Part shown: positions 20,843 through 61,806 of the stretch, piece by piece
How positions within the stretch are numbered: position 1 is the stretch's first letter
Layout of the letters: every line of letters starts with the position of its first letter
Translations under genes and position numbers: made by a program
The notes under the pieces: generated by a model
Told to the model about the DNA's origin: nothing
What the model saw: the letters and a program-made list of their open reading frames with translations, nothing else
Databases searched by the model: none
Assembly (NCBI RefSeq): GCF_921293095.1
Contig: NC_060259.1
Span: 25,551,812-25,615,811, forward strand
DNA length: 64,000 bases
Source: Ischnura elegans
Lineage: Eukaryota > Arthropoda > Insecta > Odonata > Coenagrionidae
Direction of reading: 5' to 3'

Positions 20843-20845
20843 ACA

Positions 20846-24947: not shown

Positions 24948-27167
24948 TTCATCCTACTTCCACAAAATCAAGCCTGAAATGATTTTACACGTGAGTATTC
25001 AAAGGTACAGACTGATGCTGATAATTTATTTTGTGGGCTGAGAGTAATCTTCTTCATTTTAATGATAATAAAATTTTCCGTCATAACATACCATACCTAA
25101 GACAACCAAAATGGAAGATCTTAAGAGTATATTTTGGTAAAAAATTACTTTTATCAGTCATATAATGGGTAACTGAATATACATTACAGTATGACTAATG
25201 CCAACAGAGGGATTCTTTCAACCATTCCCTCCCTACCCTTACCTCATGGTGCAAATGACCTCAGCAGTCATCACAGCTTCCACAGTTACAGTAACAGCAG
25301 CAGTTATCTCCTCAAAATACCATACCAAGGATTATTCGGAAAACACGAGACTCGGAATATCCTGAAATTAAGATTTTTCTAGTGTTTACATCACTTTTTT
25401 AAAGTGAGCATTTATCTAACCGCACAACTGCCATTACAACCGTGAATGATGAATGAACAAAAATAGCTTAAGAACCTAGAAGAATCTCCCCTCTTTGTAC
25501 ATCTGCTCGTTAAAAAAATAATATTCAGATAAAATTTTAGCAAGAGTTGATGGAATCAACGGGTTAGTGCTTCTCTTTTGGCATTCTTCTGCATACACAG
25601 CACCGGGACCCACAAGCCGCATGATTTGTCTTGACGTAATGTTTTGCTTTCCCATTACTTACAACAACACCGGATCATTTTTGTATTAAATTCAATATAA
25701 TGGTGCTAAGACATTCCTGAGTCAAAAGGAACTCTCGTATCTTTCACGTCTTAAATTTGATTTCAATGATTACGTGACGATTGACGACGTGAGCTATTCT
25801 CCAAGGACATTCACTTTAAATCCCATTCCGTTAAAAATAAAATCTTTCCACCTTGCAGAGTTAAGTTAATAGCTATTGAAGGTCTGACCATGTTTCATTT
25901 AAACCCACTAAGATAAAAGTTGAGTCAGTTTTGATCAGCGCACCACGTAAGCAGCTTTCCCCAGCTCCATTCGTCCTGCGGAGGTGGGGTTAGCCAGCAG
26001 AATGAGACAACAAATGCTGCTTGTACCGTCGTGTTCATTCATCATCAACTTTCGTGCACGTTAAAAATCAATATACTTACTTGGCTGACCTTGGAAGCTC
26101 AAATTTTGGAGCAGGGAACATTTAACAGCTCATTTGGGCGTTATTTCGCGTGGGTGACATAATTTTACATTGACAAAATTCCAGAAAATCTTCTGTAAGA
26201 GAAAGATATTCCATAATAACGATCATCACAATACTTTAATCACAATTAATATCTAATAAACAGCATCGCTAATAATTGATAACTTATTATTCTTTATTAT
26301 AATCTCCGTATAACATGTGCACAGCACGCTCGCTTGTGTGACTAAAATCAGCACACGTGCTGCAATCTTCTCATAGAACAGTTTTCTGACAAGTCACAAA
26401 GTGAGGTATTTCTTCCAATGGGACAGAAAAAATACATTTCGTACCAGAGATTGTCTTTTAAGTGAAAAGTTTCACAGCCAAGGCTGGAAATACATGGGTT
26501 CATATGGGGTTATTCATGGGACCAAAAAAAATCCATGCATAAGTGAGGTAATCATATAACCGAGGGTCATTTATCTGAGGTTCTACTGTATTATATTTTC
26601 TATAGTATTATTTATAGTATCTAAATATTTCCCTGATGCACACTGTAAAAATATGACCCAAGTTTCATACTATTTAGGTGTGCAATTGCAATGATTGAAA
26701 TGATTGCCAGTAAATACACCACCCCATGACACCACTTTTGAAATCAGCAGCTGGAAACATGAGGAAGGAAGAGAATTAAGTCACTCAAAGATAGAACAAA
26801 TATTTTTCATTTTTAAATTTCATTTCAGAGACAACGTTACATTCCAGAGGGGGGAAATGTTGGGGAAAATAGGTACTGCGGTTGTCAACGACTAGGGGGG
26901 GAGGTGTAGTAAGGATGTCACAGAAGATATAATACTTTACAAATGAGCCCATATTGAGGGCAAAATGGCTCCTCCATTGCCAATTTGAGCGGGGACTTGA
27001 CGATTCAGTGCATTAAGTTCTCACGTAATTACCTTTCTATCTATCCATGAGGGAGGCGGTGTCTGGCTGTCTTTCGTCCTGGAAGTGCTGAATCGTAAGG
27101 TATGGGCTTGAACTAAATTCATGAAAGAATTTGTAAAGGGCTTCAGTCAATGCTTAGCGAGTGTCTA
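24948..27167. other. Mostly anonymous; one pogo-type end at 26589
   Basis: CTGAGGTTCTACTGTA at about 26574-26589 matches the end sequence of Tigger/pogo elements (CAGTAGAACCTC reversed), but no matching left end was found. The 63-codon Ser-rich frame at 25191-25382 follows a possible acceptor (ACATTACAG), without other exon support. The rest is unassigned. Confidence 0.35.
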
Positions 27168-27942
27168 AGCTGCAAACAGTGGAGAAGAAGCAGCGACCGA
27201 GACTAGACATGACAGCATTGACAACGAAGATGGAAGTGAGAAGTATCTTAAATATTGGGCTATATTTACCACCATTTAATTTTGCAGGCCACACGTAATG
27301 AAGGGGCACTTCCTACTCTGACCATGAACTTTCTTGTAGCACTCCTACCCATTCCATCATTCAGTTAGACATTTCTTTCCAAAACCCTTGTTTTCTCTCT
27401 CCTACAGCCTTTTGCTGATCTTCCTGGCACCCAACTTATGCATCCCGAACCCCCCACCACTAGCATTTGTCCCCTTCCCTAGCATTTCCCACCCCTCTAC
27501 GGTAACGGAGCTTGTGTGCGTCATAAAAAAACACGGCCCCCAAACATAGTCTCATGCCCCGTTCACACTACCATCATTCTCAACCAGTGTAAAGATGACG
27601 TCAGAACCAGCATGCGTTCACACATACCATGGGTAGACACTGGCGACATTTGATGAATGGCAAAGTAAGGCCAAGTGAAAAAATGAATTGACGAGAGCGA
27701 ATAACCTGTTGGAAGGAAATAAAGAGGATCTGCAGGAAAAAATTCCTGTGCTAATTAAATGATTTTCGATGTATACGCATATTATTAGCTGATTAGGAAT
27801 GAAATAATTGCATTCCAGCATTGTTCCTTGCAACATTTTTGCCACATATAAGTTAATTCAGATATGTTAGTCCAACTAATCATTTTGTAGATAGTGTGGT
27901 TTTCATTTTTCTACTGTTCTATTGAATCCGAATAAAAGTAAG

Positions 27943-28464
27943 TACATCACACTCGCGATTATCCGCGGTAATGATGGGGAGAGACAGCATGAACAATTGG
28001 AAAACACGGATAATCCAAACTTAACTTTTATTATTTTAATGTTCATATCATGGTAAATCAAACAATTTATTATTATTTACAGACATTTTCTGTTACTTAA
28101 GATTGCTTTCTGGGTGCACTAAGAGCTTTCTGCGAGAGACCGCTATTTTTTTTAGCAATGATAACATGATCCCACTCGTATTCCTACTGCTCCATATAAG
28201 ACCTAGAAATATGAGGCTTGGAAAAGGGAACACGGAGCTTCCGTGAATGCAGCTAGCACACGATCACATCCGTTTTACGAAGGGGATTCTAATGGAAATA
28301 ATAAGCCCGGTGTATCCTAACATTAAATGCAGACATTCTGGTGATTTTGCATCCGATTTTATTTTCTATGAAGATTGCGAAAAACATTGAACGAGAGTGA
28401 AAATCAAGCATGCATAATCCGCCACACGGATATGCTGCAGCTGGATGATCGGGAGCCTGCTGTA
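27943..28464. mobile_element. pogo-type MITE, copy 1
   Basis: The left end TACATCACACTCGCGATTAT and the right end GGGAGCCTGCTGTA resemble Tigger/pogo termini. Its reverse complement aligns to 29075-29791 over most of its length (shared 'taatgatggggagagac', 'ggaaaacacggataa', 'gcatccgattttatt'). Non-coding. Confidence 0.7.
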
Positions 28465-29074
28465 TTAGTAATAATTTGGTTGGTATCAACAAATAAAGAC
28501 TACTACTTCCCCTAGAATCGGATGTGTTGACACATCATTGATGTAGGTGATGAAAAGAGGACCTAATAATCTTGAGCCTTAAGCCTCAATTAAGCCACCC
28601 TTGTGGTGATTTGGGATTGAGATGCGCTTGTCACTGCATTGCAGACCTAGTAGTTATTGTTTTCTGATTTTGAAAAAGGACATGATCCAATCTGAAGCTA
28701 TACCATAAATTAAAACTTTATTTTACTTCAATTCCATAGGAGTAGTAGTGGTAGCATTCAATAGTTGACAAATTAACTTGTAGAAATGAGACTTGAATAT
28801 GCTAGAAATTAATCTTATGAAATGAGAGAGAGAACATGGTAATTTTTTTGTATTATTTAATGTCAACTGACATTTCTAATTTTATTTTCTAGAGTTAAGT
28901 GACTAGCAGTTAGCCTGATATTTTATATTGGTATGGGAGGAAATTTTGTTCACGGATGAACATAAGAAATCTTTTATGAACTGGGCCAAAGAACACTTAC
29001 CAAAATATTTAAATAATTTTGACATAAGATTCTTAATATAGTAGTTTCCACATTTTACATTATTTCTAGCAAAA

Positions 29075-29791
29075 TACAGCAGACTCTCGATTATCTGGCT
29101 GCGGTTCATCCGGGTTGCGGATTATCCGTGCATGATTTTCACTCTCGCTCAGTTTTTTCCGCGATCTTTACAAAACAAATAAAATCGGACGCAAAATCAT
29201 CAGAATTACTACATTAATGCTAAGATACACCGGGCTTATTATTTTCACTGGAATCCCCTTCTTAAAACGTTAGCAATCGCGTGCTAGCTGCATTCACGGG
29301 AGCACTGTGTTCCTGTTTTCCAAGCCTTGCAGCGTGCTACTGCGTTCCGTGATCACGGATACACATCCTGCAGCTGTTGCAACCCAGGCAACTTGTGCAA
29401 GACGCAACTACGTGGTGTAGTGCCTGATAGTGTAGTTTCCGACGTCGCACAGTGGTTTTGAAGCATTCGTACAAACCACTTTTCTGTATCCATGATCACA
29501 CAGCCACAGATGTATGGTTTTGAAACCAGGCCTTACAAGGAGCATTAATAATACGAGTACAGCAATGTTATCACCGTGAAAAAGATCGCGAACAGGCGAA
29601 GAAATCTCTCATTGAGTCTGGGAAGCACTATAAAATAACAGAATAACTGCATAAATAATAATATATTTTTTGTTTTAGGTAAATTATGGACATTGCAAGA
29701 CATTTAAGTGAAAGTTTGGGTTATCCGTGTTTTCCGATTATTCGTGCCGTCTCTCCCCATCATTAGCCCAAGTAATTGGGAGTGTGCTGTA
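29075..29791. mobile_element. pogo-type MITE, copy 2 (inverted)
   Basis: It begins TACAGCAGACTCTCGATTAT and ends GGGAGTGTGCTGTA, with TA at both edges. It is the inverted relative of 27943-28464 and contains about 200 bp (29330-29640) that copy 1 lacks. Non-coding. Confidence 0.72.
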
Positions 29792-31179
29792 TTTATAGGG
29801 AAAATTCAATATGTCCGTAAAAATACAAGGTGAGCAAATGTCTAATTCCCTATGATCTATAGCATATCACATATATTACATCACGTGTAAAACTAAAAAT
29901 ATTCAACAAATTACAGCATGTATCTAGAGCACTTTCATTTTCATTAATTCCTACGAATACAGTTCAATTAAAATGGCCATCTCCTCTTCAAATGCTTTCT
30001 TTCAGTTTTCTCTCCCCTTCTCCCACCACGATGCTGCTTCGCCTTCTTTTTCCAACCAGCTTTTAACCAACTTGCGTTCACGCACGCATGAACTACAGCC
30101 AACCATGGTTGGGGAACAGCGGTCAGAATCGCAACCACGGTTAACGGTAACTCACGTTCATACCTCGTTTTGTAACCATGGTCGGGCTTAACCACGGTGA
30201 AAAGAGCAGTGTGAAAGCAGCATTAGGCAAGTCTGAAGGCCCTTTATGCACCCTTCCTCCTCCCACCCACTGCACCTCTCTTAATCCTGCCGCCACTTCC
30301 TCAACCAGGCAGCACCCATCCCACTCTTATTTACTCCACCCACTCCAAATGTTCTCAGTAAAGAAGTGCATGTTCATCTCTACTGGCAACGGGGGCAAGT
30401 TTCCAACTGTGGAGAGGCTGGAGAAGTATTTTTCATTACCAGGGAAACAAAGAGGAAAATGTTTCGTCATTTCTTTACATAGTTTTAGTCTGTCCTTGAC
30501 CCTGTGAGACTTGGCGGATTAGCATGCCCTCTCATTCCATTTACACAAAGATACGGCTGGGCTACCTGCCAATTCCGTGATTGAACCTAATCACTTTAGC
30601 CAAGTTAGGAAGCAGGAGCCGCATATTGGGAAAAACTAAATGAAAAACCAACTTTTTTAAATTAATTTTTTATGTTCATGGGATTAAATATTAAACAATG
30701 TGCTTCATATTTGAAAAGATTGAGCCAAAACCTGGCGTCAATCTGAAATCATGAGCTTATTTTTTTATTTTGTTAACCTACTATAAACATGATCAACAAA
30801 CTTAAATGATACCAGAACTATCATGTTTTGGGCTGATTATTTTCTAAGCATCGTGTAGATTTAAAACATTGCTATGATGGTTTAGTTTCGTGAACTCTCA
30901 AAAATTATACCTCGGTAAGTTGCCCCTCTTTAGTTTTCTGGTTTTATTCTTCACCGTACTTAAAATGATGCATTGAAAAATTTTTTATCGTGTAAGCCAT
31001 AAATGGAAATAAACTCTTCACAGGTTTCTGTCCGGATAAGGTGCTCCTACCGTTCTGCCGATGATTCAATCGAAAACTTTTCCATCGTCATCAATGCCGT
31101 TAATACCTACATAGTGTGAGATGCTGCACTTATAAAATGGTCTCTCTTCTTCTCTCAGACTTTCAATAGAAATTAGTTA

Positions 31180-32912
31180 CAGTGAAACCTCGTTAAAGCG
31201 AGTATGGGCTATAGCGAGACACCCGCTAGTACGAGAGATAGCCAATTCACCGTCAATTGACCCTATAGTAGGCATGTTAAAAAATTCGTTTTTACGAGGC
31301 CCTTTTGGTGTTGGCTCTCGCCATAGCGAGGGTTTCACCTCCGGAAAAACTTACGTCAAGACCCCTTAATCTCTGTAATTGCTAGCGATCTGTTAGAAAT
31401 GAAGTTAATGGAGTGATCAGTCTCAAATTTATGTGGTAAACTGTCGTTCAATAAATAAGTAATTAATTTTGGTGAAAATATTGTGGCATTAGCATTCGCG
31501 AATGCTTGATCTTCTTTTGTTCCTCGGGCAACAGAAAGCAGTCAGCAGCATACCTGCACGTCCGTGAGTTGCGTGAATAGAAAGCTCTTCACATTAAAAA
31601 AAAAACAGAAGCGCCCAAGGAATGCAGACTATGTAGAGTTATAAGGAGCTTTGTTCGGGTAGTTTTGCCCACTCCAATCTGAGGGAACTTCTGAGAAAAG
31701 GGCTACGCCTAAGCCTAGAGCAGAGTATTTCAGGGATATATTGCGAATAGAGAATTTCAAGAGTGCGGAAGGTTGATTATACTACAGCAAAGCACCAAAT
31801 CGTTGTATCCCCTCATAATTGCTGGTGATGCTTGCGGTGTAAACCCGAATTCGTGGAAGAAAGGACTCCGATCATAAGTATCTTAAGAAGTATTCCCCGC
31901 GTGATATAACATAGACGAAACGGAACTTTTGTACATCCTATTCCCCAACAAAACCCTTGCAATACGAGATATTTCTTGCAATGATGCCTCTAAAGGTATG
32001 TAGTGCACCTTAGCGATGATGTACGATGTAATAATACTGAGCGTGAATTGTCCGGATGGACGTATTTATTCTCCGTTGCCGATTCACAAGGGTGAACTAT
32101 TCGCGTCAGTGGTCGGAGCCGTACTGGCGCTCTTCTGTCATGTGGGTAGCCGAGCATCCCCTGGTGGCCACTGGAAGAACACACAGAACAACCGACTCTC
32201 GTTTGCAGTGCCATGGTAAACTCTGTGTATTTCAAATACGTCGCGAGCGTAACACTCAAAAAGGAACTTTTTTTAACAACGGCAATTTTGATCACATCAC
32301 TTTTCAAGCTTAGCAAACTTTTTACCATAGATAATGAAGATATTAAATTATCTGATAGAAAGAGTACAACCTTCCACCGTTTTCGACTGCAGAAACAAAT
32401 GCAATATGTTATTTCACTTCACTGCCGCTTCGTGTACAGGAACAATAAACATACACCAATGGAAACATTTGGGGCATTAAATAACCGCAATACAGTTTTA
32501 TCAGTTAATTTTTGAATTTTCAGGAGAAATACCAAAATAATAGAATGATTACATAAATGCACTAATTGAGTGCATAGAAAAATGGCTTCGTCGGTTGTGC
32601 ATTGGCATAATGATTGAAAAAACAATGCTTTGCATAATTTTTATTCAGTGCGGCGCTTATATATTGTTTGAATAGTTAGTCGTTGTTAGAGTAAGGAAAT
32701 TTAGTGATGCAAAAAACATCACCTTTCGTCTGGATTTATGCTTACGTTTATCAGATAGAAATTTATCTGTCGCCGCACCACTTCTGTTCCTGTATAACTG
32801 TTCGCAACAAGTATATTAGCTATCATTTGCTCCACCTACGGTTAAGCGACAATTCGCTATAGCGAGTGTTTATTGGTGCACCGTGGGGTGTCGTTTTATT
32901 GAGGATGCACTG
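31180..32912. mobile_element. 1.7-kb pogo-type element in Tigger copy 1
   Basis: It starts CAGTGAAACCTCGTTAAAGC and ends TTGAGGATGCACTG, flanked by TA on both sides (31178-31179, 32913-32914). The same site in copy 2 (about 38880) is uninterrupted, confirming the insertion. Frames inside (31990-32328 and 32419-32625, minus) are unrecognised. It is either a gutted autonomous element or a long MITE. Confidence 0.75.
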
Positions 32913-33989
32913 TACTTGCTTTGTCCTTTCCATGCTACTATTTATTTTACAATAATCGCGCGACTAATTTTTAGTCCAAACAGAGAGAAAATCTTTTCTC
33001 TACACAACTGATGCTTTGCATAATTTTCAATATGACAGAGAAAGAAACATGAAAACTAAATGAGGTTAAGGTACACATTCTGGGGTATCATTTTTGGGAA
33101 TTCATGCAAGTGAACCGATACTTCACTTAAATATCTTGAGAAATGATAACACAAATGTTTTTGAAAAAAAAAATGAATGTGGATACTATAGATGTAAACT
33201 CTCGATTGTACGAAGCAGGATTTTACGAAGTTTTCGATTATACGAAGTGATATTGTGGTCCCGGCGAAAAGCCTATGCTAAATACATGGCACTATTCGAT
33301 TATACCGAATGCTTTGAAATTAAGAACCTCGGCTCGGTCCCCAGGAGCAAATGGCATTCGTTTATACGAACTACGGCAAAATATTTGTCAATAAAACTAG
33401 TTACGCCGGCGTAAGTAGATAAAAAAAACAGCGCTTCCGACTGTAGTCCATCAAAAGTGTGAAATCCTAAATGATAGTATAACTTTGGAGAGAAAGGAGC
33501 ACCTCACGGAGGGAATTTAAGGGAAGTAGGAGTTCAGTAAAAAAATCGCAACTGACAAATCGCAAATAATGCCCCTATTTACGTGCCTATTCGTAAAAAT
33601 CGCATCGACAATACTGTGTAGATTAACATGTCAGGAATGTCATGCGGGGTATTTCGTCCACTCCTACTTAACCCTTCGCAATTCTGTGAACGTACCTGGT
33701 ACGTTCGCAAGGCAGGCTGCTGTGAACGTACTTCGATGACTACTCGACTACTTTTCGCCGAAGCACTTCGAAGGGTCCCTAAGCCGGGATCCTTTCCTCG
33801 ACGAGCTCACCCTCGCTGGCCCCTCTCTTCGACCCTCCGAGCCTTTCTCCCCTAAGTGACTGCTCTGACTGCATTTTGAAAATCTATCAATCAATGCCAT
33901 CATCAAAAAATGATTGTCTGCATCGCACTCCTGCCAATCAGGCATTCAAGTACGTCTCTGAGCCGTGTTTCTGTGATGAGAAATAACGA

Positions 33990-34317
33990 ATTTGTTAACT
34001 TTGCTAGAATGGCCAAGTTAATAAAATTGTTATTTTTCATCGCAGAAATACGGTTCAAAGACGTACTTGATTTCCTCCACTACAATCGCAAATTTCTAGA
34101 AATCCGACGGATTCCCTTTGATAGCGAATCATGAGGATGTTCTCGAGGTTGGTAATTGATACAACTAGCCTACTAGAAATTCTACTGCTACAATATCACG
34201 GCTATGGTTGATTCGTTACATAATACCTTCAGGAAGCTGCAGTGGATGAAATCACAGAGGAGATTAGAGGCTCGAAAGATGATTTTGAAAAATACTTGGA
34301 AAAAGCTGGAACACAGC
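33990..34317 (+). pseudogene. Tigger-like transposase C-terminal remnant, 5' part
   Basis: The plus-strand frame at 34242-34317 reads DEITEEIRGSKDDFEKYLEKAG, preceded in another frame by 'NTFRKL'. It continues after the hAT-like insertion at 37927 with 'ATSNDYIALDNDLQA' and an acidic Ser/Asp/Glu tail (about 38020-38065). A helical acidic region after an 'NCFRKAG'-like motif is usual near the C-terminus of Tigger/jerky-type transposases. The DDE core and DNA-binding region are not recognisable. Broken by frameshift, stop codon and insertion. Confidence 0.5.
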
Positions 34318-36659
34318 CAGGGTTCCCACTCTACCTGAACAATGAAATTCACGGCTTTTTCCAGGTTTTCACGGTTATTTTTCACGTTTTCACGGTTTTT
34401 TTAAAGGTTTTCACGGTCTCAATTTTGCTAAATTCACGGTCCGTTAATAAGCCAACAATAAGAAAATCACTGGCCGTATATTAACAGAAAATTAACGTAC
34501 GCGAAAAACGCCGTGAATGTTAACGCCGCAATGAAAAGTGATATCTGTTATGACGTGATCTATCGTTTGCAAAATTCAGGGCCGACTAAAGGACCAGCCC
34601 AACCGCGCTCTTGCCCGGACGCCGAATACCCTTCGGACCTTCTTCCGTCCGGACACTCGAGGTCCTTTTTTAATTCCTCGCTGAGAGATTGTTTTTTGCG
34701 CACGTTGTTATTACTGCACAGCAACCGAATTTCCCCCACCCCAATATTCCTTATTTAACGGAAAATATTTTATTTAAATTGTTTATAGAATATAATAAAT
34801 TGATTCTTTCTTACTCAGCGGAAAATATTTTATGAAAATTGTTAATAGAACATAATAAATCGAAAAACAATTTCATACAACGTATTAGCACGAATCTAAG
34901 ACGATCACGATACTAAGACTACCCTCCTTTTTTGGAACTCCTCTAGGGGACAATTTTTCTTTATTAATAACGATACGATTATAAAATGAATGCGGAAAAA
35001 CGATCAATGCTTAATTTTTTTGCTAGATTGCCTATGTCCCAGGAAACGCAGGATTTTGGCGAGTAATTAAGAAATTCATTAAAGGTTTCAAAACAATATT
35101 TTAGATAATAACAGGAATAGTAGTACTTTATCAAGACACATACGTCATATTGTTGATTCGACCCATATCTCTTTCAAAATTATGAATGTTTGCTCTCCAC
35201 TCGGCATTTACACTGCTATTATGGATTTCAGTCAGATGTAAAAATTCTTATCCATCAAACACCATTTCCAGTATGTACACGTATTCACGAGAGCAATGTG
35301 CATGTTGTGCCTAAAACAACCGCATTCGCCGGTGCAGTGACTGGTTGTGAGATGGATCACGAAGGCCAAAAATAGTCAATTACTTGAATTGTTCTTGTCT
35401 AATGAATATATTTTTAATACAATTGAGGTAGTGTGTAAAGCGTGAACAATGTTGCGTTAATCGTCAGCGGCACGCCCACCTGGATCTTCGCCTTCATATC
35501 TCTACTTGTTTTCTCCAGGTAGCTCACTCTACCCCCACCCCTAACGTCATGTGCTAGCGGACAACCCAAGGCGCTCTGCAATATTCACGCGCATCTAGCC
35601 CGGATTCTTTTCTTCATGTTCAATTATTTTCAGTCCATCTCTTAAAGTTCTCAATAGTTTCTTCGGAGGGGCCATGGTCGGAAGACGACTAAAATTAAAC
35701 TAGTGAAAATGACTTTATTAAACCCACATGGAAAACACTCGGTGGTTCGAAGTCCAGCCACCCCGGAAAGTAGGGAACCACTCGTACGAGGTGAAGTTCG
35801 GAACTGATGCTATCGCGTACGGGGGTACGCAGAGCACACTGCAGAGGGCGAAGCGTGACCATATGACTGCGCCATGAAATTTTTTACCCTAAAGATGCCC
35901 ATTCTTTTCTAATTAGCGTAGCGCCAGATGATCAGATGAATTCGGATTGTTAGTAGGGAGAAACAAAAATCCCGAGAAGATATCCCTTCGTCAGTAACTC
36001 TGACAAGTGAGACTACTAGTAGTAGTATAGCTCGTAAGTTGATAACTGATAACAACCTGGTATCATGTTTTCGGAACAAAATGCCGAATTAACTGCCGTA
36101 AGCTCAGCTACGAGGATATCGCGTTTCGCCAAAAATCACCATCGTATTTTTCCATCTATTTCCTTGCTTAAAATACGTCATGTGTGGTCTCGTTTTTTTT
36201 AACGTGCAAATTACTAACATTTCAATCTAATAAAAGCATAATAGCAATTACTGAATATCATTGTTAGATACCTTTTGGGCTAATAGGTGATTCATGCAGC
36301 AGTTGACCTCCATAAACTGGGAACTTCGAAGCAGTTAGGCTGAAAAAGGTCAGTTGGTGAGAAGAGGGGTTTCTATTGTTCTCGTGTAACTCGATATTTT
36401 TTTCGAAGCTAAGGTCTTCGTAATAAGATCCCTGCGCGAGCTGGGACCTGTTTTTATTTTGAAGAAGAGGAAAGCGTCAGAAGGGGGGAGGAGAATGGTG
36501 AATGGAGGGGGATAAAGGTTCTTGGGAAAGGCGCTAATGTTACTTTCCCACGGCACTGAGCTTCTCCCAATGGTAGTTCCATCTCTTGGGGAGGATTCCA
36601 ACTACGTGCTTGTCGTTATTAGCCATAAATGACACATTGTATTTATTTCGTCTCATTTT

Positions 36660-36845
36660 CGTCAAACGATGGATGCGGGAAAATTCTGCGTCGGAACCGC
36701 GATCTTCAAACGATCAATGCGAGAAACGATACTTCGGGGAACGATAGATGCGGGAAAAAGATTAAATTGTCTATAAGGAGCTTTATTTGGGACCAGAAAC
36801 GGCAAACGATCAATGCGGGAACGATAGATCGAGGTTCCACCGTAT
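36660..36845. repeat. Short tandem-like motifs beside a pogo-type end
   Basis: The motif CGAT(C/A)(A/G)ATGCGGGA recurs about four times between 36667 and 36818, followed by CGATAGATCGAGGTTCCACCG at 36821-36841, which resembles a Tigger/pogo terminus. Probably subterminal repeats of a truncated pogo-type MITE; its left end was not found. Confidence 0.45.
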
Positions 36846-37036
36846 AACTTTCTTTTGAAAGCGGCAGTGTAATGACTTCTTTTCTCTGCTATCGTAATAC
36901 TCTGAAACCAAAACTGAATCGATCTCTCTAATCAGAGGCAAATCATGTTCCCTTCTTACCGTTGCTCTGGGAAAAATGGAACGACTATGTAGCATAATTA
37001 ATCGTAGAGGGCGTAACTTGGTGGAAAACCATAATA

Positions 37037-37090
37037 TCACGAATACAAGGATCAAGGAAATAGCAAAGTTCTTGATCCTTGTATTCGTGA
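37037..37090. repeat. Perfect 20-bp hairpin
   Basis: The arm TCACGAATACAAGGATCAAG (37037-37056) is matched exactly by its reverse complement at 37071-37090 across a 14-base loop. It lies inside the hAT-like element. Because of the palindrome both strands show short frames with the same 'TNTRIK' motif, which are artefacts. Confidence 0.85.
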
Positions 37091-39539
37091 GACTATGTAG
37101 CAGTTTATATCGCGACGGCATTGAGGCTTTAACGACACAAACAAACAGCATTACCTTAGATAGCACAAAGAGGAGGAACTGGATCACCACCGACAGTAAA
37201 TAACTCCACACAAGCTTTCCGGTTGCGACGTAAAACTGGCAAGTTCCAGGTCGACGCATGCGACAATCGTGTAATGCTGTGTTGCCATAAGCGGAAATCT
37301 TCTCTCGTTTTCAGGGCCGCAATGCGCGAGAATTAGTAACGTCACGCCGAAAGCTCGCTGTCACCCGGTTCAAACGCAGGGAGCGTAGTGTCCACAGCGC
37401 ATGGCAGGTTGTCAAGGCTAGCGGTCTTCCAGTCATAGGATTGAGGGTGTTGAATAAACGTTCAAATTTTTCGACACAATGGCCATCTAGATTTAGTTTC
37501 GAAAGTGGTCGTTGCAGCCAGTGGGAAGGCTAATTGGGTGGAAGGGGGACTAAGCAGTGACCGAGGGAGGGGAAACCAAGCCATTTGAGGAAAGCAAACA
37601 AGCTGATGAGAAGTGGTGTCATATTTCAGGAGGGGGAGAGAAAAGGCCTGCGCTGGGGAAAGATGTTTTTTTCTTCAGGCAACATTCGTTCCCACGCTTT
37701 TCTGACCCATGCGACCGCATGCGACGATGCTCGCCACAATGAATAGAAGTGCGCTAGCTACGAACGAAGATGAAAATTTCTGGGAAGGTATTATAATCAA
37801 GATTGAGAGATTTTTAAGGTTTTAAGACGAAATTCACGGCTATTTCCCGGTTTTTTCACGGTAGAGGAAATTCACGGCTAATTCACGGTTTTAAGGTTTT
37901 CACGGTTGAGTGGGAACCCTGACAGCATGCAACATCGAACGATTATATTGCCCTAGACAATGATCTACAGGCTTGAGACAATGCGACGCCGGGAATTACG
38001 GCGGAAGAAGCAGCGGCCGGGACTAGTCATAATAGCAGTGACGACGAAGATGAAAGTGAGGAAGTAATTTCATCTAATAAAAAAAGAAGTATACGCTGCC
38101 CTCCAAACCTCCTTAATATATTTTGATCTGGCTAACGATTTAGATCCCCAATTTAATTCCCATTTATGCAAGTGAGAAACCATGGTGGAAGCGTCAATGG
38201 AGAAGGGCAAAAAGCAAAAAAAATAACAGATTTTTTTGGGCAATATCTATTGGTGTATATATTAGCCTTCCTGAATAATAAACAACTTAAATATCTCAAG
38301 TATTGGGCTCTATTTACCACCAACTTATTTTTCAGGCTAATCGTAATGGAGACTCACTTCTAACTCTAACCATGAACTTTCTTCTCGCACGCCTCCCCGT
38401 TCTCCCATGCCGAGAGATCTTTCTTTGCAAAGTCTTTGTTTACTCCCTCATGCAGCCTTCTGCTGATCTTGCTGACACCCACCTTACACATCACAAACCC
38501 CTCCTTCCCCAGCATTTCCCATTCACTCCCTCCCCAAGGTGACAGGACCTTGAGTGCGTCGTAAAAAAATACGGCCCCCAAACGTAGACTGAGGTAGAGC
38601 TGAAGGCCCTTTCCTCACCCTTCTTTCTCCTGCCCCCTTCACCACTCATTATGCTGACCACACTTCTTTCCTCAGGCAATCCCCATCCCACTCTTATTCA
38701 CCCCACTCACTAGGAACATTCTCCAAACTGTGGAGAAGGACATGGTTCATCTTTACCGGCAACGGTGGTAAGTTTTTAACTGAAGAGAGGCTGAAGAAGT
38801 ATCTTCCACTATCGGGGAAATGGTGCCATGCTTATAATTGTCTCTCTTCTTTTCTGCTGACTTTTCAATTTAAATTATTTTCTTTGCTTTTTCCTAACAA
38901 TATTTATTTATGATTATAGCGCGCCAATTTTTTAGTGCTAAAACTAAGAAAATCTCTCCTCTATGCCAATGATCCTTTGCATAACTTTCAATACGGCGGA
39001 GAAAGGAACACGAAAACTAAATGAGGTGAAGGTACAGGTTTTTGTGTCATTTTTGGTAATTAATGAACGTGAACCAATACCTCACACACGTTGAGTAATG
39101 ATGAAACGACTCTTGTAGGAAAACATGATGGAAAACATGTGGATAATAACGTTTCTCTCTTTATTTCTCAGATAATGGAAGATGTTTCTCCTGTCGTTTT
39201 CCGGTTGGAACCTTGCTCCTGTAAGCATAAAAGAAGAGAGACATACTACATGAACATAGCACCTCACACGCGGTATGAAGAATATGGTCCTGATGAAGAA
39301 TCAAGTCTTTCATAGCAACATCTGCAAAGATGATTGAGCACATTAGCCGGACAGAGAACTCAAACAGAAATTACTTCAAATATTCGCCAGAAGATAATCA
39401 TATCCTACGGAATTTATGATCGTAACTGAATCTCAATGAAAATAACTAATTGAAAAGATAGCACATTCAGCTGAAAATACGGAGTAACTCAAAATATTAA
39501 CTTACAAAGGTTATTTTGGAAATGGGTTAAGGCCCTCGT

Positions 39540-39885
39540 TTTTCTTTTTTTCTCGTCACTGAGTGATAGAGGGCAACATAAATGGCGGTTAGGCCCTTAC
39601 AGTATGGTTAGGCCGGCTGGCGCTAAAATTTCATGGGTGTTGGAAACAAATATCTATCTTACGCCTACTTAATAGTCGCTATTCGCTCCCAACCACAAAT
39701 TTATAACATTAAATTAGTTCTCTAACTAAGAAATTCCTGACCAGTTCTCTAAACTGGTCAGGAATTTCTTAAGCGATCGTTGATATTGAAGTATGTACAA
39801 GAAATAGGAATTTTATGGCGGTATAGTTATTTAACAATATTTCACAGCATAAATCGATAACAAAAAGCCTTTTCCAAGAATTCTA
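39540..39885. mobile_element. About 340-bp insert in Tigger copy 2 with a hairpin
   Basis: Copy 1 (about 42610-42660) lacks this stretch, while sequences on both sides align. Within it, 39726-39745 and 39751-39770 form perfect 20-bp arms (AAGAAATTCCTGACCAGTT core) with a 5-base loop. Likely a small MITE; its ends are not defined. Confidence 0.5.
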
Positions 39886-40027
39886 CCGTGAATAACCACC
39901 GAACATTTAAATAAGGCCACTAAAGACAAAAAAGGTCGGAGGAAACAAAAGCTAGCATTTTTTTATGACTTCTGAAAAAGGTTTGAAATTACGAAACTCG
40001 ATTTTAAGAAGTGCTGACTTCATATAA

Positions 40028-42213
40028 CACTGGACGGCATGAAAATCGGCCCTGACACTATTCCTGCTGATTCTCATGTAAAATGACCTCCTAAATCCGA
40101 ATGTGAACTCCGTTTTTCCCCATCACCCACCATTTTTGGGGGAGCTCCCCCCCTCCAATTTTTATGACTTTTCGGTCATTTGGAGTAATTAAGAGGATAA
40201 TTTTAACATTTAAAATTTTTCTAGGGGTTTTGAGGGATGCAAAATTCTAAAAAATTAATATTTATGGTAAAGAGGTATTTTGGGGGGAATTTGTCTCCCC
40301 AAATTGTGTAAAAACGCATTAAAAATGATCACTTTTTTCATTTTTTGCGAATTTTCACGTATTTTTAAAAACTTCCATCTTCCATTTCACATCATCCTCC
40401 CCCGAATGATAAAAATATACGACAACAAGAAACAGCAGTAACAATAAAAATACTTTGTTGCATAGCATAACAACAATAATTAAAATATTTCGCAATAGCT
40501 CGGAAGATTCAATTTACTACGCTGGCCCTCGCAGTGCCTCTCCCACTCCAGCTTGGATGGCAATTCTCTTGCTTTTGCATCTAAAAAAGGAAAATTAATA
40601 CTTTCTAATTCAATGAAAAATATAGGATTGAGGTTATATTGTCACTGGAGTTAAAAAGTATTCTTTCTCCTTAATCATTGAGTTCCACAAAGTATCAGCC
40701 TCTCAAAGCAATTATGTATAATGAAGTTGTCATCATCTTCCCTTGGTGTACCTCTAGCAATCCCAGAGTCAACTCTTTTGGCCAATGGGAATGAGTTACC
40801 TTCTGTCCTATCTATATACTCTACCGATATGATGGATACGTACGGAGATATCAGCCGAATCCTTGAAAATATTAATTATCGTGATTATAACTGCGCTGAT
40901 CTGAACTTTGTCGCTCTACTCACCGGACTGCAATCAGACTTCACGAAATACTACTGCTTCCTTTGTGAAAACAGCAGCTGCACCTGAGAAAAACATTACA
41001 TCTTACGGGACTGGTCTCTGCGCGAAAGCTTCACTCATGGTCATAAAAATTTCTCTCATGTTTCCCTGGTTCCGACAGAAAATATTCACTTGCCACCATT
41101 GCTCATCAAACCACGACAGATGAAATATTTTGAAAGCAATCGGCAAGACAGGACCTGAATTTCAATTTTTAACTTAAAGTCCTCGTCTTAGTGAGTCTAA
41201 AACTAAGGAAGAAATTCGTGGTCCCCCAGATTAGGAAACTTTTCCAAGATTCAACGTTTATTAAACACCTGAATCATTAAGAAAATCGAGCTTGGCTTGG
41301 ATTTTGAAAAGTGTGTTGGAACTTTTTGGGTGACAAAGAAGTGATGACTATTTCGCCCATGTCGAGGAATTTCTGTCAGCGTATTAGGCCATTAGGTGTA
41401 ACATATCACTAAAATGCATTTCTTTCATTCACACCTAGACCTTTTCATAGAATATTTTGGAGCAGTTTCAGATTAACATTGGGGATAGTTCCATGAAGAT
41501 AACAACAACTTCTAAAGGAGATTTTCAGATAAGTTGAATGCGGGCAATTTGGTGTGTATATTAGGCCTGCTGTTTTTGTACGAGAAACTTCTACCTCAGT
41601 GTATAAAGGGTAATCAAATACCAAATTACTTATGTTATTCATCATCTTCACAAGTTATTTTTCTCTTTCTTGATGTGCGGGTGGTATTGAGAGCGCCAGC
41701 GTGGTAGCGTACCTTCTGAACCATTGGCACACATTTTCATTATTTTTCTATGCCGTGTTCTTAAATATTTTTATTATTGCCTACATAAGCTGTTGATATA
41801 TTTTTCCGTTATTCTGGGATATTTCGGGTATGGAAAGATGAAATGGGAGATGAAATATGAAGAAAATAGGTGAAAAAATAGCGAAAAAAGAAAAGGTTGA
41901 TAATTTTTAATGTGCTTTTTTAATCAGTAATGGAAACTAATCCCCCCAAATCTACATCCTTACCATTTATTATCATGTTTTAGAACTTTTCACCTATCAA
42001 AAACCCAATAAGAAATATAAATGTTAATATAATCCTTTTCATTCATCCAAATTATTGCAAAAGTAATGAAAATTGGAGGAGGGGCTTCCCCCCGAAAGTG
42101 GTGGGTGATGAAGGAAAACGGGTGTCCTATTAGGATTCAGGAGGTCATTTTACATAAGAATCAGTAGGAATGGTATCGGGGCTAGAGAATAAATTATTTT
42201 TTGCCGTCCAGTG
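40028..42213 (+). mobile_element. CACTG-ended (CACTA-like) DNA transposon
   Basis: It starts CACTGGACGGCA and ends TGCCGTCCAGTG. The inverted ends extend well over 100 bp (shared 'aggaggtcattttaca', 'caccca-cattttt'). TAA flanks both sides (40025-40027, 42214-42216). Removing it restores the right end of Tigger copy 2. CACTG termini with a 3-bp duplication fit the EnSpm/CACTA superfamily; Chapaev (4 bp) and Transib (5 bp) fit less well. Confidence 0.72.
40721..41910 (+). pseudogene. Broken transposase-like gene of the CACTG element
   Basis: The open frame at 40721-40987 contains LNFVALLTGLQSDFTKYYCFLCE. Downstream, across several stops and frameshifts, come 'AIGKTGPEFQFL' and 'ISLKCISFIH'. 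From memory these resemble a protein family repeatedly annotated as 'uncharacterized' in arthropods and cnidarians (pattern VALLTGLQ-GFTKYCCFLC, LDKTGPAFKFL, MSLKIHFLHSHL). I cannot name a curated domain. Its position between the inverted ends supports a role as the element's transposase or accessory protein. Confidence 0.5.
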
Positions 42214-42230
42214 TAATCTAGAGTTTACTG

Positions 42231-42820
42231 TAATAACATTTCTCTCTTTACTTCCCCGAAAATAGAAGATGCTCCTCCAGCTTTTCTCTGGTAGGAACCT
42301 TGCACCTGTCGGCATAAAAGAAGAGAGACTATTATATCAACATGGCACCTCACTCCTGGCATCAATGGCCTCGTTGACGAATAAAAAGTCTTCCATTTTA
42401 ACATCCGCAAAGATGATGGAGCATGGCAGGCCAGACGTAGAGCCCAAAAAGAATTTACTTAAAATATCCCCAGTAGAAAATAATTTCCAGCATAATTCAT
42501 GATCATAACTAAATCATAATGAAAATAACTAATTAAAGAGATCGTACATTAAAATGACAATATGGAAGGAACTACAAATATTCACATATGAAGGTAATTC
42601 TGGAAACGGGCTATGACCCTATGAAGAAAGAGCATTTTTTTAAATCCTCTCTTAAATAGCCAGCGAAAACTTTAAACAAGGCCACTAATGACAGAAAAAG
42701 GGCGGTGGGAACAAAAGCAAACATTTTATCATGACTTATTCAAAAGGTTTGAAATTACTAAACTTGATTTTACGAAATGCCTATTTTCCAGTCCCGCAGA
42801 CTTCATACAATTGAGTTTAC
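42231..42820 (+). mobile_element. Right end of Tigger copy 1
   Basis: Begins ATAACATTTCTCTC immediately after the TA that closes copy 2, and aligns to copy 2 positions about 39143-40022 minus the 39.54-39.89 kb insert. Ends GAGTTTACTG then TA. It first looks like a tandem partial copy, but it is the displaced 3' part of the element that copy 2 entered. Confidence 0.78.
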
Positions 42821-42822
42821 TG

Positions 42823-43290
42823 TACTCCTAACGACTACTGCCACGACACACCGTTGCCCTGGATTACAGGAGTCCTCCCAATGTTGCGTGAACGCAACAC
42901 TTCATTTAATCTTAAATAATTTGAAAACCACTTCGTCAAATTCACCCAATTTGTTGCAATGGCCTAGAATACAAATGCTTCATTGCATTGGCAAAGAGAT
43001 AAAATAATAGAGTGCCTCAGACTTAACATAATATTTAAAATTTGAAGATAACCTAAAATACCGACTACCCAATAAATGAAAAGGTCATTGTAAAAACAAA
43101 ATCTATCAAATTTCTTAGGTAGAAAAATTCAAAACATTTAAATAACCATTGAACTACCTATGCTAAAAAAAACTTGGTATCAACAACAAATACAAAGAAA
43201 ATAATCCCTAAGTTTGCATTGCATTCATGCAACATTAGGAAGAAATGGGTTAATTCAGCATTCAGTATAAGCCAGGGCCAATTCATCTAA
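42823..43290. other. Flank of the nest, nothing recognised
   Basis: AT-rich sequence between the Tigger nest and the second LTR-element remnant. One 76-codon frame (42777-43007) overlaps the Tigger end and is not supported. Confidence 0.35.
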
Positions 43291-43292
43291 AT

Positions 43293-44760
43293 GTGGATTT
43301 CTGTAGCAGAATACCTTTGGTTGGCGTAGCAGAGGATTTCTTCCCAGATCCAGTGGGCGTACCGATGCTGAAGGAAGCACTCTTGTCTTCCCCCTTGACT
43401 GCTGTCTCTGCCTGGATTCTTCAACGCTACTTCACCACTTTCAATGGTTATTTGAATAAAAGATGTCATAGGGGACCAAGTGGACAAGGAAGGACCCTAT
43501 CATGTCACAAGTCCTCCAATCTGTCCTTGTTGGTCGAGTACATTCCAGTGATGCAGAGGAGCCACGATGCAACAGACGAGTGGGGAGGCGTGGACATGTT
43601 GACCAAGGAGACAACTATTGGAGTGAAGCGGCACTCTTTACTTCAGCACCTGCTTTTGACGTTGACACCTCGGAGGACCTTCGGAGTGTTATGTGAAGGG
43701 ATCAAAGTTGCCACAGAAGACAGAGCAACATGATGAATTCAGATGGTCTCTTCGAATTGGGACATGAGTCCTTAGATGAGCCAGAAATAATGCTGGCAGA
43801 TTCTCCTGAAGAAAAACAGTGAATAGAAATCTACACAACCCCAGCAAATGGTGCTGCTGAGGAAGGAAGTCAGAACATTTCATCTGACGACTTGATGAAC
43901 ATCTGCACAAAAGATTTCATGCTTCTGAGTGGTGTTCTCGAGGAAAATAGAATGCCATAACTACCTGCAGCTACTAATGGAGAAGCAGGAATTGGCGTGG
44001 TTGTGAAGGAAGAGAGGGATGTAGTGACCCTCGATGATGAAGTTGAGCAGTGTGGATCTTCTTTTGGATCTAATCCCTCCTGTAGCTACACACCCTTACC
44101 TGGCAGCAGATTTGTACGATACCAAAAACCTCCCAGCAGAGATTTATCCAACAAAAGAAATTTTGGGGAAGGCCCCTCCCAAGTCAATGGAGAAGTAACG
44201 TCTATTTAAAAAATTATGATTGAATGAATCGAGATAGAAATAAAGAATCCAGGGAGCCAATCATAAGAGGGTGGATGGACTCCTACGGATTAAAGAATAG
44301 GAAAAGATGATTTGTATGAGGAAATCTATAACAAGATGAATAATTCACCTAATGGAGAAGTGACATCAATTACGCAAATAATTATGGAAGTGGTGAAGTA
44401 TCATTGAAGAATCCAGGGATCAGGGATCCGGGGATGGGGATGAGAGGGTGGAGGGACTCCTACAGATTGAAAAGATAAAGCAAAATCCATTAGTACAAGG
44501 AAATCAAATCAGAGAACAGTAGATTTCAAATAAGAGAGCTTGATGTTTCCAAGCCTATTAATAATTTTGTAACCTGGGAATGCCTTTCAATTTTTTTATG
44601 TTATTCCCAATTCTTTAATATGCATTATGTTATTAAGAGGGGGAGGATCTGGTGTATGTTCAAACGTTTAGTGAGTGTTTTGTTTTTGGACTTAGAGACA
44701 GGAAGTGATGTGTAAGGCTGGGGACATCGGATGTGAGCACGTATGGGCAAAGGATGCTAC
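43293..44760 (+). pseudogene. Second LTR-retrotransposon remnant (plus strand)
   Basis: Homologous to 20602-22790 on the opposite strand. The shared acidic region at 43740-44209 (EPEIMLADS, AAEEGSQNISSDDLMNIC, FVRYQKPPSRD) contains stop codons at about 43822 and 43960 that the other copy lacks. A polypurine tract (AAGAGGGGGAGGAT) at about 44635-44648 precedes the LTR-like start TGGTGTATG at 44650. The sequence 'ctggattcttcaacgctacttcaccac' near 43410 sits in opposite relative orientation in the two copies, indicating rearrangement. No intact protein. Confidence 0.55.
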
Positions 44761-45356
44761 CCAGATAGCACAAAATATCTTTAGATATTTAGAAAATATC
44801 TCAAATGTCTTTGATATCTTCTAGATTATGAAAATATCTTCAATATGTTGGATATTTTAAGTATCTACTTGAATTCCAGAAAATGTCTTCAGTATCTTGG
44901 ATATTTTAAAATTCTACTAGATGTCTAGTGTATGTCTTTCTGAGTGGAGACTTTTTGCATGTGTACAGTGAAATTGGCCAAAAAGCACCCAAATCTTGGA
45001 ATAAAACTAACTGCTATGCTTTTTGGTGGATGGATAGATAGTCGTCGTACACACATGCACTAAAAAAGCAAAGGCAACCCTTCTAGCAAATGCTTATTAA
45101 AGCAATTTAAAGCTATTGTAGCTTCCTTTTTAAATTTCTACTAGATGTCAGGAATATAATAATAATAATAGTAATATTTATTGTTCTTGGACAAAATTGT
45201 CCATTAAGAACATAAAAGATATTACAAAATAAACTTGTACAAAATATATGAGATATTTCCGAATGGAATTTAGCACAACTAACACATCAGGGCTTAGAAA
45301 TGAAATCTTGAAGTTAACTTAAACAATCATATCAAAAAATACCTAAGAATGCACAT
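44761..45356. repeat. Short tandem and simple repeats
   Basis: A unit of about 51 bp is repeated imperfectly around 44827-44930 (landmarks 'gaaaatatcttcaatatgttggatatttt' split over two copies). An (AAT)n-like run lies at about 45157-45180. The remainder is unassigned AT-rich sequence. Confidence 0.5.
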
Positions 45357-45958
45357 TAGGGTGGGCCGAAAGAAGGTTTTTTTTCCTGATCAAATTTGCC
45401 CTGTGCGGGAAAGTTGCGAAATGATATAAGGATCTCGCACACAAAATATTTTTAAAATCGGATAATATTAACCACTGCCGCCCGAGCTCTAAAGTTTAAA
45501 ATTTTGCGAAAAATCAGGCTGATTTCAGAACCAAACGGCTATGAAGGCGAATGTTATGAAAATATGGGATAATGGATAATAACAAAGAGTGGATACATGT
45601 TTATAGTTTATGAGAATGAAATTTGAAGTTTTTTTGACAAAATCTATGGTTAAAAAAATGTCTATGAATTAACAACAAAATTAGAGTATAGACCACCCGC
45701 ACAACACAACTCATTTTTGCCTACATTTACTGTTAAACTGCAAGCTCTTTACTTCGACGAGAGGAAAGACTCTGCTTTCGTTTATAGTCAATCAAAGTGA
45801 AAAACAATAGGTGAGGAGCATGTAACTCTCGTTCAAGAGCCCGGTTCACGCTACTTATGGCATGTCACCCCATGTGTCAGCAAAGCTATTGGCCTCTAAG
45901 ATTCCATAACGAATCATAACATCATCATTCGAAGATAACGAATTTTCTAGGGGAGGAA

Positions 45959-46880
45959 ATGATCATTATCGATGGACTCCAAGCAATTGTGTGCGATCTA
46001 ACTGAGGTTAACACCGGAAGCCATGCTGGAGTAATCAAGGATATGGCCCTAAGAAGACCTTTGCATTGGTTTGTTTGCCTGCTTCATTGCAATGAACTAT
46101 CATTCAGAACCGTCAAAAGAACTGATGACCCTGGCAAAATTTGTTATCGAAGTTTACGCTCCAATGCGGTTTTCAATAAAATTGAGACAATATTGAACAG
46201 AAGTCCCGAAGTATATTATGAACATGATTCTTATGAAATATATATATAGAGACATCAAATTACGCCGCCACTCTATGATTCAGGGAAATGTAATTTTGCT
46301 CACCCAGAGAATATTCCGCTTGCAATGTTAGCCGATGAACGCAGACAAATTCGTGCAATGGCCATCACAAATACATTGAAATCGAGAGAAACTCAGCAGG
46401 AGGAATTGAGGAAATTCGAATTCTCCAAAGCTAACCTTCGATGGAGTGAAGAGTTCTCGGGATCGCCACCGGGTGAGAAACTCCATATCTGCCGACGTTT
46501 CGATGTCCGGCACGGTCATCGTCCTCAGGGCTATGAATGAACACTTCGGCAGATATGGAGTTCCTGACCCGGTGGCGATCCCGAGAACTCTTCACTCAGT
46601 CCATTCAACGGGAAAGTACAAAATCTTTCTAAACTTCGATGCTCAAAATTAAATTGACTCGGTTGACTGTGAACCAATTGAGGTAAATCAACCACCAATA
46701 GTAGCTGGGATGACAAACAAAAACTTGGAAGACCTTGTTACGGAAAGATCTGTATTTGAAGTACCTTTTCCCTGCCATACACAAGCAGTTGAAAGGATGG
46801 TACAAATGAGAATGTTAGCATCAAAATCCGTGTGCAGTATAGAACGCAGGCATGGATGGGAATTATCGTGCATAAGAGAC
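45959..46880 (+). pseudogene. Decayed transposase-like gene of the long-TIR element
   Basis: The open frame at 45959-46249 includes TGSHAGVIKDMALRRPLHWFVCLLH and NELSF. After a stop it continues with 'MLADERRQIRAMAITNTLKSRE' (46325), and beyond the nested foldback with 'PCHTQAVERMVQMRMLASKSVC' in 46720-46850. I recall a recurrent invertebrate transposon protein with the motifs 'NTG-GVIR-E--L-RPLQW--CLLH-NELPLR' and 'PCHSQAVER-VKLV-EAS', but cannot name its superfamily. Stops, a frameshift and the foldback show it is dead. Confidence 0.5.
46443..46605. mobile_element. 163-bp foldback MITE inside the transposase gene
   Basis: The left arm GGAGTGAAGAGTTCTCGGGA continues through GATCGCCACCGGGT and AACTCCATATCTGCCGA; the right arm is the reverse complement at 46548-46605. 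The arms are about 55 bp and nearly identical, around a central GC-rich 50-bp spacer. It interrupts the recognisable protein similarity, so it entered after the element was fixed. Confidence 0.75.
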
Positions 46881-49309
46881 GGATAATAATTATAATCATA
46901 GAATAGAATAATTTTCTCAGAGTCATTGATGTGCTTTCACAATCGTGTCCTTCGGAAGGTTGGCTGGGGGGACACGGGTGGAACTCATTGGTAGCCTCTT
47001 CCTCGTGGAGAGTTCTGGGCAGTTTCTTTACGAAACTAGCAGAGAGCTACTTAATGAAATGCTTGGTGTTCAGGTTCTGTTTTTTCTCAGCCTTGGCTGA
47101 ATTTCTTATTGAAAATAGCTCCACAGGTACGTTATTCGTCATTATGATCGATGTTAATTTCAAATAATTTATCTTATTATTACTTTTTGTGGGATTATTT
47201 ACTACCATATGATGACTTATTTCATAAGAAATGAAATTCAATCGAAATAAATATTATTTTACCTGCAATTAAGCCCCCAAAATGGAGTTTTAGAAATGTA
47301 GGCAAAAATGAGTTGTGTTGTGCAGGTGGTCTATACTCTAATTTTGTTGTTAATTCATAGACATTTTTTTAACCATAGATTTTGTCAAAAAAACTTCAAA
47401 TTTCATTCTCATAAACTACAAACATGTATCCACTCTTTGTTATTATCCATTATCCCATATTTTCATAACATTCGCCTTCATAGCCGTTTGGTTCTGAAAT
47501 CAGCCTGATTTTTCGCAAAATTTTAAACTTTAGAGCTCGGGCGGCAGTGGTTAATATTATCCGATTTTAAAAATATTTTGTGTGCGAGATCCTTATATCA
47601 TTTCGCAACTTTCCCGCACAGGGCAATTTTGATCAGAAAAAAAAACCTTTTTTCGGCCCACCCTACTGCACATATACCCATCGTAACATTCAGGGTAGAA
47701 CATGAAAAAATAAATAAATAACTAAATAGATAGAACATGAATAATGATAAATCATTTACTCCAGTAAATATGGCATTCGATTTCAAGCAGACCTGAGGTA
47801 AATATTATAAAACATTAACACTAGAAGGACGGCAGGGGTCATTTGACCCATTTTCAGAATTCAAATTTATTTTTCTCTTATTAAAATATTTTTTTAAATT
47901 TTGAAACTCTTTGACTTTGTTCATTGTGGTCAATATTTTGATAAATTAGTGAAAATTCAACAATAATGTTTTGTTTTAAATTTTTATGACGTGTTATACC
48001 TAGAAGGACGGCTAGGGGTCATTTGACCCACAACTGGTTTTCGCGCTATTTTCTTGCCCGTGGGCACTTTAGTGTCATGTATATCATATAATGAGCAAGA
48101 GGCTAGTGTGGTAGATGATTTGCTTCAATTTTAACCTGGAAGTACCCGGTTCAATGCCAGTTTGGTCCCAAGGGCTCATATCTATATTCGAAAACCTAGG
48201 CATAGCGACTTGTTGTGCTCAATCTTTCGATATTTTTCGGGCAGCAAAGGGAAATAAAACCTTTTCAATCCTTGATTTGCGTAAATTCATGTAATTATGA
48301 TATTTTAATTTTGTTTTATTTATTTGTCAATGGTTATTGTATTACCCACACCGGAAAATCGTCACGTATATCCCAATAATTGTTTTCCGTCGTCCAAGAT
48401 TCAGAGCTCTTAGAGACATTATTTTCAATATCGACTCATCAGGTTTACGAATAACTTTAATTTTTCTGGCCTGACGGCACTGTCACTTGACCTAGCCCCT
48501 TTGCCGTGTGTCCAGCATTAGTGCCGCCTGACCCCGAAGGGGTTTGGGCGGGTCGACTGCACGCTGCATCCTGGGGAAAAATCCTGTCTCATTTTGAGAG
48601 AGCGGAGGAATTGGGTGGACTGTAAAATTCTACTGTAAATCCTACCCTTGGAATCCGCACGTAGGTCGGAGAAGAAGCATTACTGCAAGTTCCTGGAAGA
48701 TACGAATCAGGACACGGTTGGCGGTTGAGTCCCTGTCTTTCGAACGGCAATTAGCGTTACTTCTGAAAACTTTGTCCTTTTGTATGAATATCTAATGCTC
48801 TCCAGCTCTTTATACCACCAATGCAACTAGAGAAGATTCTACCATAATGCGCTTTCGTGTGTAGATATTTTTTTGCATGCATATCAGTAGCGAGTTAAGG
48901 AAGAAAGAAAGAAGTCGAGAAATGTATCAAGAGAAGTGAATCGTCGCGATTCAAATAGCTGTAGGGAATATTGAAGATCAGTCTGGAAGTGATTCGTAAA
49001 CCAGTTCAAGGACATTTTGACCAATCCATCAACGTCTGCGTGTGATGGAAGCGACGAAGTCCAAGATAGTGAATCCGATGACGACTTTGGCGTGATAGCA
49101 AATGCACAGCTCTATCCAACAAAATGCAGCTGTCCTTTTCTGAGGTAAATTCCAAATAAACCAGACAAATTTGGAGTACTGGGTTTTGACAGATGTGAAA
49201 TGAAAATACAGCCTAAATGAATTTCCATATTGTTGCAAAGATGATGATTGGCCATCAAATCAAGCGTTGGGGAAATAAATAGTTACTAAAGTGACCGTAA
49301 AATACAAGA

Positions 49310-53465: not shown

Positions 53466-53549
53466 ATCAGCATTAAAATCGCCAACAAGTACGATATTTT
53501 TATAATTAGGACTAAATGTAGTGTAAATATGTTCAATATCAGTAAGATA

Positions 53550-53948: not shown

Positions 53949-54000
53949 ATCACCGTTGAAATTATCGGCTTCGTTGCCAACCTCATATCATAAGGTCTCG

Positions 54001-59997: not shown

Positions 59998-60021
59998 CTG
60001 CGTAAGTGCCGCCTTGATTTC

Positions 60022-61760: not shown

Positions 61761-61806
61761 TTACTCAGAATCTCCAAGATGACTGATGTCTCCTTTGATG
61801 GGTAGT

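Follow-up and report, generated by a model that had tools for sequence, protein, structure and literature searches.

The question raised by this locus is whether one Tigger-like transposon lies inside a relative of its own, and how far such interruptions put the insertions in order. Within the window, by which we mean the whole 64,000-nucleotide stretch of DNA that was analysed, positions 26500-44500 were read on the + strand, and the window was compared with itself on both strands; searches of the 1.72 Gb genome used element ends as queries, with the best ~40 candidates scored per search. The open frames of the window suggest an animal, probably an arthropod. The comparison confirmed that a decayed DNA transposon (copy 2) lies exactly within an older relative (copy 1) and is itself the target of two other transposons, and the original prediction of a nested Tigger was correct to within 2 bases. 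We propose that copy 1, a remnant of an older subfamily of Tigger-like (pogo group) elements, would have been the target, and that copy 2, non-autonomous and from a related but younger subfamily, would have entered it at a TA, cut and pasted by a transposase supplied from another copy. A CACTG-ended transposon would later have entered the right terminal repeat of copy 2, and a hAT-like transposon its transposase remnant. For this whole explanation, with copy 1 as host of the younger related copy 2 at a TA and the CACTG and hAT-like inserts within copy 2, we estimate a probability of about 0.96. Its demonstrated parts are the precise junctions, the target duplications, the uninterrupted sites in relatives, the subfamily membership and the order from copy 1 to copy 2 to both of the others.

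Copy 2, a member of subfamily I, occupies 33186..42230 on the + strand, as delimited by relatives and alignment, and measures 9045 bp with its inserts and 3247 bp without them. It is flanked on both sides by TA, the target in copy 1 being the TA at 33184-33185, and the two copies share the same orientation. The first 8 nt of copy 2 (33186-33193) read CTATAGAT at a point where the family has CA; a small local change is the only explanation that we offer for this terminus, and one relative (L030) is changed there in another way. A sequence corresponding to the empty site had been predicted to survive inside copy 2 itself, and GTGGATAATAAC is indeed present at 39139-39150. Failure of the two copies to align collinearly had been set beforehand as the refuting outcome; 32914-33185 joined to 42233-42822 does align collinearly with 38860-39560, at a local score of 316. 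Among the controls, 100 dinucleotide shuffles gave 27 at the most, and 100 pieces taken from the first ~26.9 kb of the window gave 28. The end part of this alignment is misaligned because the copies differ by 322 bp in length; in the self-comparison of the window their right ends match at 42624-42780 and 39859-40014 with 79% identity.

The same join can be followed in relatives elsewhere in the genome. At the site GTGGATA/ATAAC, 54 loci were considered, of which 17 were unscorable and 37 gave rows with both block ends aligned; four of these rows repeat a place already counted, leaving 33 distinct places. No gap was seen in 25 of the 33, a gap of 1-5 bases in eight, and an insertion in none; the loci were picked by similarity to the window copies, and gaps of up to 3000 bases would have been displayed. 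Two of the scored loci (L038 and L044) have a common outer flank and may represent one event. No allele or close duplicate lacking copy 2 was found among the 66 listed matches to 42233-42830, one of which is the window itself while the remainder are at most 87% identical. The junctions and the uninterrupted sites of relatives thus bear out the placement of copy 2 at a TA inside copy 1. That an element should have landed in its own relative might be taken to mean that the younger subfamily targets such relatives and that the self-nesting is not a matter of chance. This one case is what speaks for targeting, the other copies having been viewed with 10-14 flanking bases, and we regard targeting as very improbable; in our proposal the self-nesting would instead be chance in a genome rich in such elements.

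The relationship between the two copies was examined in a midpoint-rooted tree built from a ~660-base block of 31 sequences, consisting of copy 1, copy 2 and those 29 of the 40 loci L025-L064 in which 560 or more query bases were aligned. Copy 1 and copy 2 fall on opposite sides of a split with support of 100/100. The two are 23.8% apart, and copy 1 is 14-18% from the members of its own group and copy 2 8-12.5% from those of its own. These values bear on another reading of the locus, in which one element was duplicated in tandem or segmentally and then altered by indels, with no insertion at all. The two copies do lie side by side in the same orientation, as a duplication would leave them, but a duplication predicts sister copies, whereas the tree places them across a fully supported split, in different subfamilies and each nearer to copies elsewhere than to the other. 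Moreover, the point of interruption is a TA between two family ends, and all 33 scorable distinct relatives have the join. On the alignment, the joined sites of relatives and the tree we reject tandem duplication as very improbable. Least credible of all is an assembly artefact in which two loci were wrongly joined, which we reject because both junctions carry family ends and a TA (the left end slightly changed) and the joined flanks rebuild known family sequence, as would not be expected of a misjoin.

With insertion of copy 2 into copy 1 as the preferred reading, the tree also bears on the relative age of host and insert. End branches are 0.05-0.11 in the group of copy 1 (0.10 for copy 1) and 0.03-0.058 in copy 2 and its five nearest mates; the branch of copy 2 itself (0.058) is longer than those of these mates (0.030-0.038). 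From these divergences the host belongs to the more diverged of the two subfamilies and the insert to the less diverged, as the nesting requires. A third Tigger-like subgroup of eight members was recently active, with end branches of 0.005-0.013 in seven of them and 0.032 in the eighth (L041). The seven (L031, L032, L037, L038, L040, L042 and L044) are ~3.0 kb long, and L038 and L044, identical in the tree, have flank in common.

Copy 1, on the + strand, belongs to subfamily II and survives in four segments, whose order, together with the leftward extension of the element to ~26684, is given by four relatives (L045, L047, L056 and L059). These match the first segment (26684..27555) from 26684-26710 to 27557 at 80-84%. 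The second segment lies at 30223..31177, where 1449-2533 of L056 matches 30214-31179 at 71%. The third (32915..33185) ends at the TA entered by copy 2. The last segment (42233..42822) carries the right terminal repeat; the original prediction had the end of copy 1 in the right location, at 42820, but the exact end is 42822, followed by a TA at 42823-42824. Inverted matches at ~30374-31151 were considered as a separate inserted element and rejected, as the same four relatives show like inverted matches and these arms therefore belong to the old subfamily. The left ~530 bp of copy 1, including its left terminal repeat, are missing, the only such sequence found in the window being that of copy 2, and the left ~500 bp of the four relatives have their window match solely in copy 2 (E 1e-4); because copy 1 lacks its left end, its own insertion is not demonstrable. 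Copy 1 also lacks, at 42620-42624, a stretch of ~320 bp that is found in relatives and that copy 2 retains at 39537-39858. The blocks flanking this stretch are 299-612 bases apart in 25 of 26 listed relatives and 54 in one. From this spacing the difference is most likely a loss from copy 1, and the alternative, that the 322 bp are an insert in copy 2, was rejected.

Between the segments of copy 1 lie two further inserts that were absent from the original prediction. The composite insert at 27556..30222 (2.7 kb) has ends TGCCCCGTTCACACT and AGTGTGAAAGCAGCA, a boundary placed to within 3 nt and perhaps a TCA/TTA duplication, and within it lie two elements of Tigger type, 27945-28462 and 29077-29789, which are oppositely oriented and each adjoin a TA. 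The insert at 31180..32912 runs from CAGTGAAACCTCG to GAGGATGCACTG and is flanked by TA at 31178-31179 and 32913-32914; pieces of another copy of this element occur in locus L058 at 91-92% identity.

Copy 2 was reconstructed by removing its two inserts at one copy of their duplications. This in-silico excision, which had been suggested as a check, gives an element of 3247 bp, to be compared with 3248, 3261 and 3252 bp in three relatives (L025, L027 and L033), to which its identity is 90.5-90.8% (90.8% for L025) over 3197-3209 aligned bases, the alignments having 90-101 gap columns. Both insert junctions fit the relatives on a single copy of the duplication: at the hAT-like junction relatives have AGCACAGCGCGCAAC and copy 2 has AACACAGC joined to ATGCAAC, and at the CACTG junction TATAATC is found in the relatives and in copy 2. 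A 137-bp palindrome at 33940-34076 of copy 2 is present in several relatives too.

The CACTG insert lies in the right terminal repeat of copy 2 at 40028..42213 on the + strand, with ends CACTGGACGGCA and GCCGTCCAGTG and TAA at 40025-40027 and 42214-42216, so that the element and the TAA duplication expected for it are both established by the junctions and by comparison with relatives. Ten other copies of the family could be read at both ends; in eight an identical 3-bp TNA flanks the element left and right (in two of these it was read by eye beyond a terminus that had changed), one has TAAT on both sides and one has no matching duplication. Identity in the best-scoring listed relatives is 88-95% at the left end (41 other rows, two at 75-76% that partly match the opposite arm being left out of the range) and 89-92% at the right end (39 others). 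The CAC...GTG ends and the 3-bp duplication are shared with CACTA/EnSpm-Mirage-Chapaev elements, and the available part of PMC12730594 treats such termini and duplications as consistent with EnSpm. The present insert differs in having imperfect inverted arms of ~520-540 bp (69%), and the one frame of the window copy that was scanned gave neither a transposase nor any other Pfam family.

The hAT-like insert lies at 34318..37921 on the + strand, with ends CAGGGTTCCCACTC and GAGTGGGAACCCTG and ACAGC at 34313-34317 and 37922-37926. The insert and its ACAGC duplication are as predicted, but the name hAT is unproven and serves here as a label only, the duplications being of 5 or 6 bp and not 8 and the transposase not being found in the parts scanned. 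Among the listed matches, 16 other copies have both ends (located by an exact 12-base match; loci L085-L104 and L106-L117), and the duplication is exactly 5 bp in 11 of them, exactly 6 bp in five and 8 bp in none, whereas 240 mismatched pairings reached a maximum of 4. The CAGGG-type terminus of hAT5 and hAT6 elements resembles that of this insert. The available part of PMC12730594 gives 8 bp as the usual duplication of hAT elements and names, after Kapitonov and Jurka, the groups hAT5 and hAT6. Duplications of 5 or 6 bp are shared with those groups, with the difference that a single family here yields both lengths. In the single frame scanned of the window copy the best E was 0.0035, to an unrelated family and below the cut-off. 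The best-scoring listed matches are 98-99% identical at the left end and 97-100% at the right end (39 others in each case), and a comparison of one copy (L105) over a greater length gives 97.7-98.1%. This 9-kb copy was considered as a full autonomous member and rejected, its extra length being another nested insert; the interruption of ~4.9 kb (L105:1349-6226) matches, on its minus strand, a Mutator-like transposase and YqaJ. Within the window copy, 36645-36845 holds four direct repeats around AACGATNNATGCGGGAA and an end close to CGAGGTTCCACCGTA that looks like one more Tigger-type end. On the duplication counts we see an even chance that this very young family makes 5- or 6-bp duplications from the same ends through flexible cut spacing of its transposase, in which case the split between hAT5 and hAT6 may not reflect separate lineages.

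The assignment of the two nested copies to the Tigger type comes through their relatives. Tigger/pogo transposases have an N-terminal CENP-B-like DNA-binding domain and DDxD spacing. In L032, a third-subgroup member whose ends are the same, an open stretch at 999-1520 matches DDE_1 (PF03184) with E 3.8e-26, and it is by way of this transposase piece between the same ends that the predicted name stands; no such piece was seen in the window copies themselves, where three proteins scanned from the remnants of copy 1 and copy 2 had no Pfam match over the cut-off. Such transposases are numerous in the genome: 150 out of 3004 candidates were scored, every one of them over the family cut-off, whereas none of 14 control genomes yielded any. 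A PDB search with the L032 DDE piece returned three chance matches only (best E 0.42). The terminal inverted repeats of relatives are CAGTAAACTCTCGATTATACGAAG (the left terminus being altered in copy 2); among 40 loci examined at each end, TACA precedes GTAAACTC in 27 of 29 aligned at the left end, and CTGTA is found in 29 of 33 aligned at the right. The DDE_1 transposases together with the TA duplications, the target-site duplication of Tigger/pogo (Tc1/mariner), point to a pogo/Tigger-type element. The likeness to this group extends to the CAG...CTG terminal repeats; both window copies differ from it in being non-autonomous remnants. Copy 2 retains an acidic C-terminal remnant followed by KAKKITDFF, and L027 has KKQKITDFF, which we take to be a PCNA-binding type motif. 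It should be noted that 'Tigger' is polyphyletic according to the available part of PMC7325037.

Other elements occur in the window. At 45349-47673 an element with 380-bp inverted ends (TTAGGGTGGGCCGAAA) that are 97.9% identical is probably among the youngest in the window. A further repeat is present in two inverted copies, at 20724-22687 and 43408-44759, which are 83-87% identical over the longest stretches and have open frames; one frame scanned in each gave no Pfam match over the cut-off. Long open frames on the minus strand at 51267-53987 and 58897-62430 presumably represent a LINE reverse transcriptase and a BEL/Pao-type retrotransposon polyprotein; one reverse-transcriptase fragment from them matched RVT_1 with E 0.006, below the cut-off.

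The original prediction read the locus as a TA insertion into a relative followed by two later inserts, and this stands; the relative ages of four families, which it also drew from the nest, hold only in part. The order of copy 1, copy 2 and then the hAT-like and CACTG elements is secure, but the last two are left unordered, and nesting orders insertion events, not families, evidence for the age of which comes from other copies in the genome. Since its nearest relatives are more identical, the hAT-like insertion is suggested to be more recent than the CACTG one, on divergence and not on nesting. The searches returned best-scoring matches, so the family ages lean young: close relatives exist, and a mean age is not thereby given.

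Nested transposons, and their ordering by interruption, have been known for long. Interruption analysis and defragmentation, as presented in the available parts of PMC2517846 and PMC2672092, take the pattern of interruptions among elements as the means of ordering or rebuilding nested insertions; the logic is the same as ours, applied here to one locus. The nest is unexceptional for an animal genome with many mobile elements, and there is nothing new in principle at this single locus, the mixed 5/6-bp duplication being the only mildly unusual point. The locus is a clean, checked case of transposon stratigraphy for which no new mechanism is needed: one place puts two Tigger-like subfamilies and two later families in order, in agreement with the divergences of copies elsewhere in the genome. 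The mixed 5- and 6-bp duplications of one family, for their part, could inform the limits of duplication length as a guide in hAT classification.
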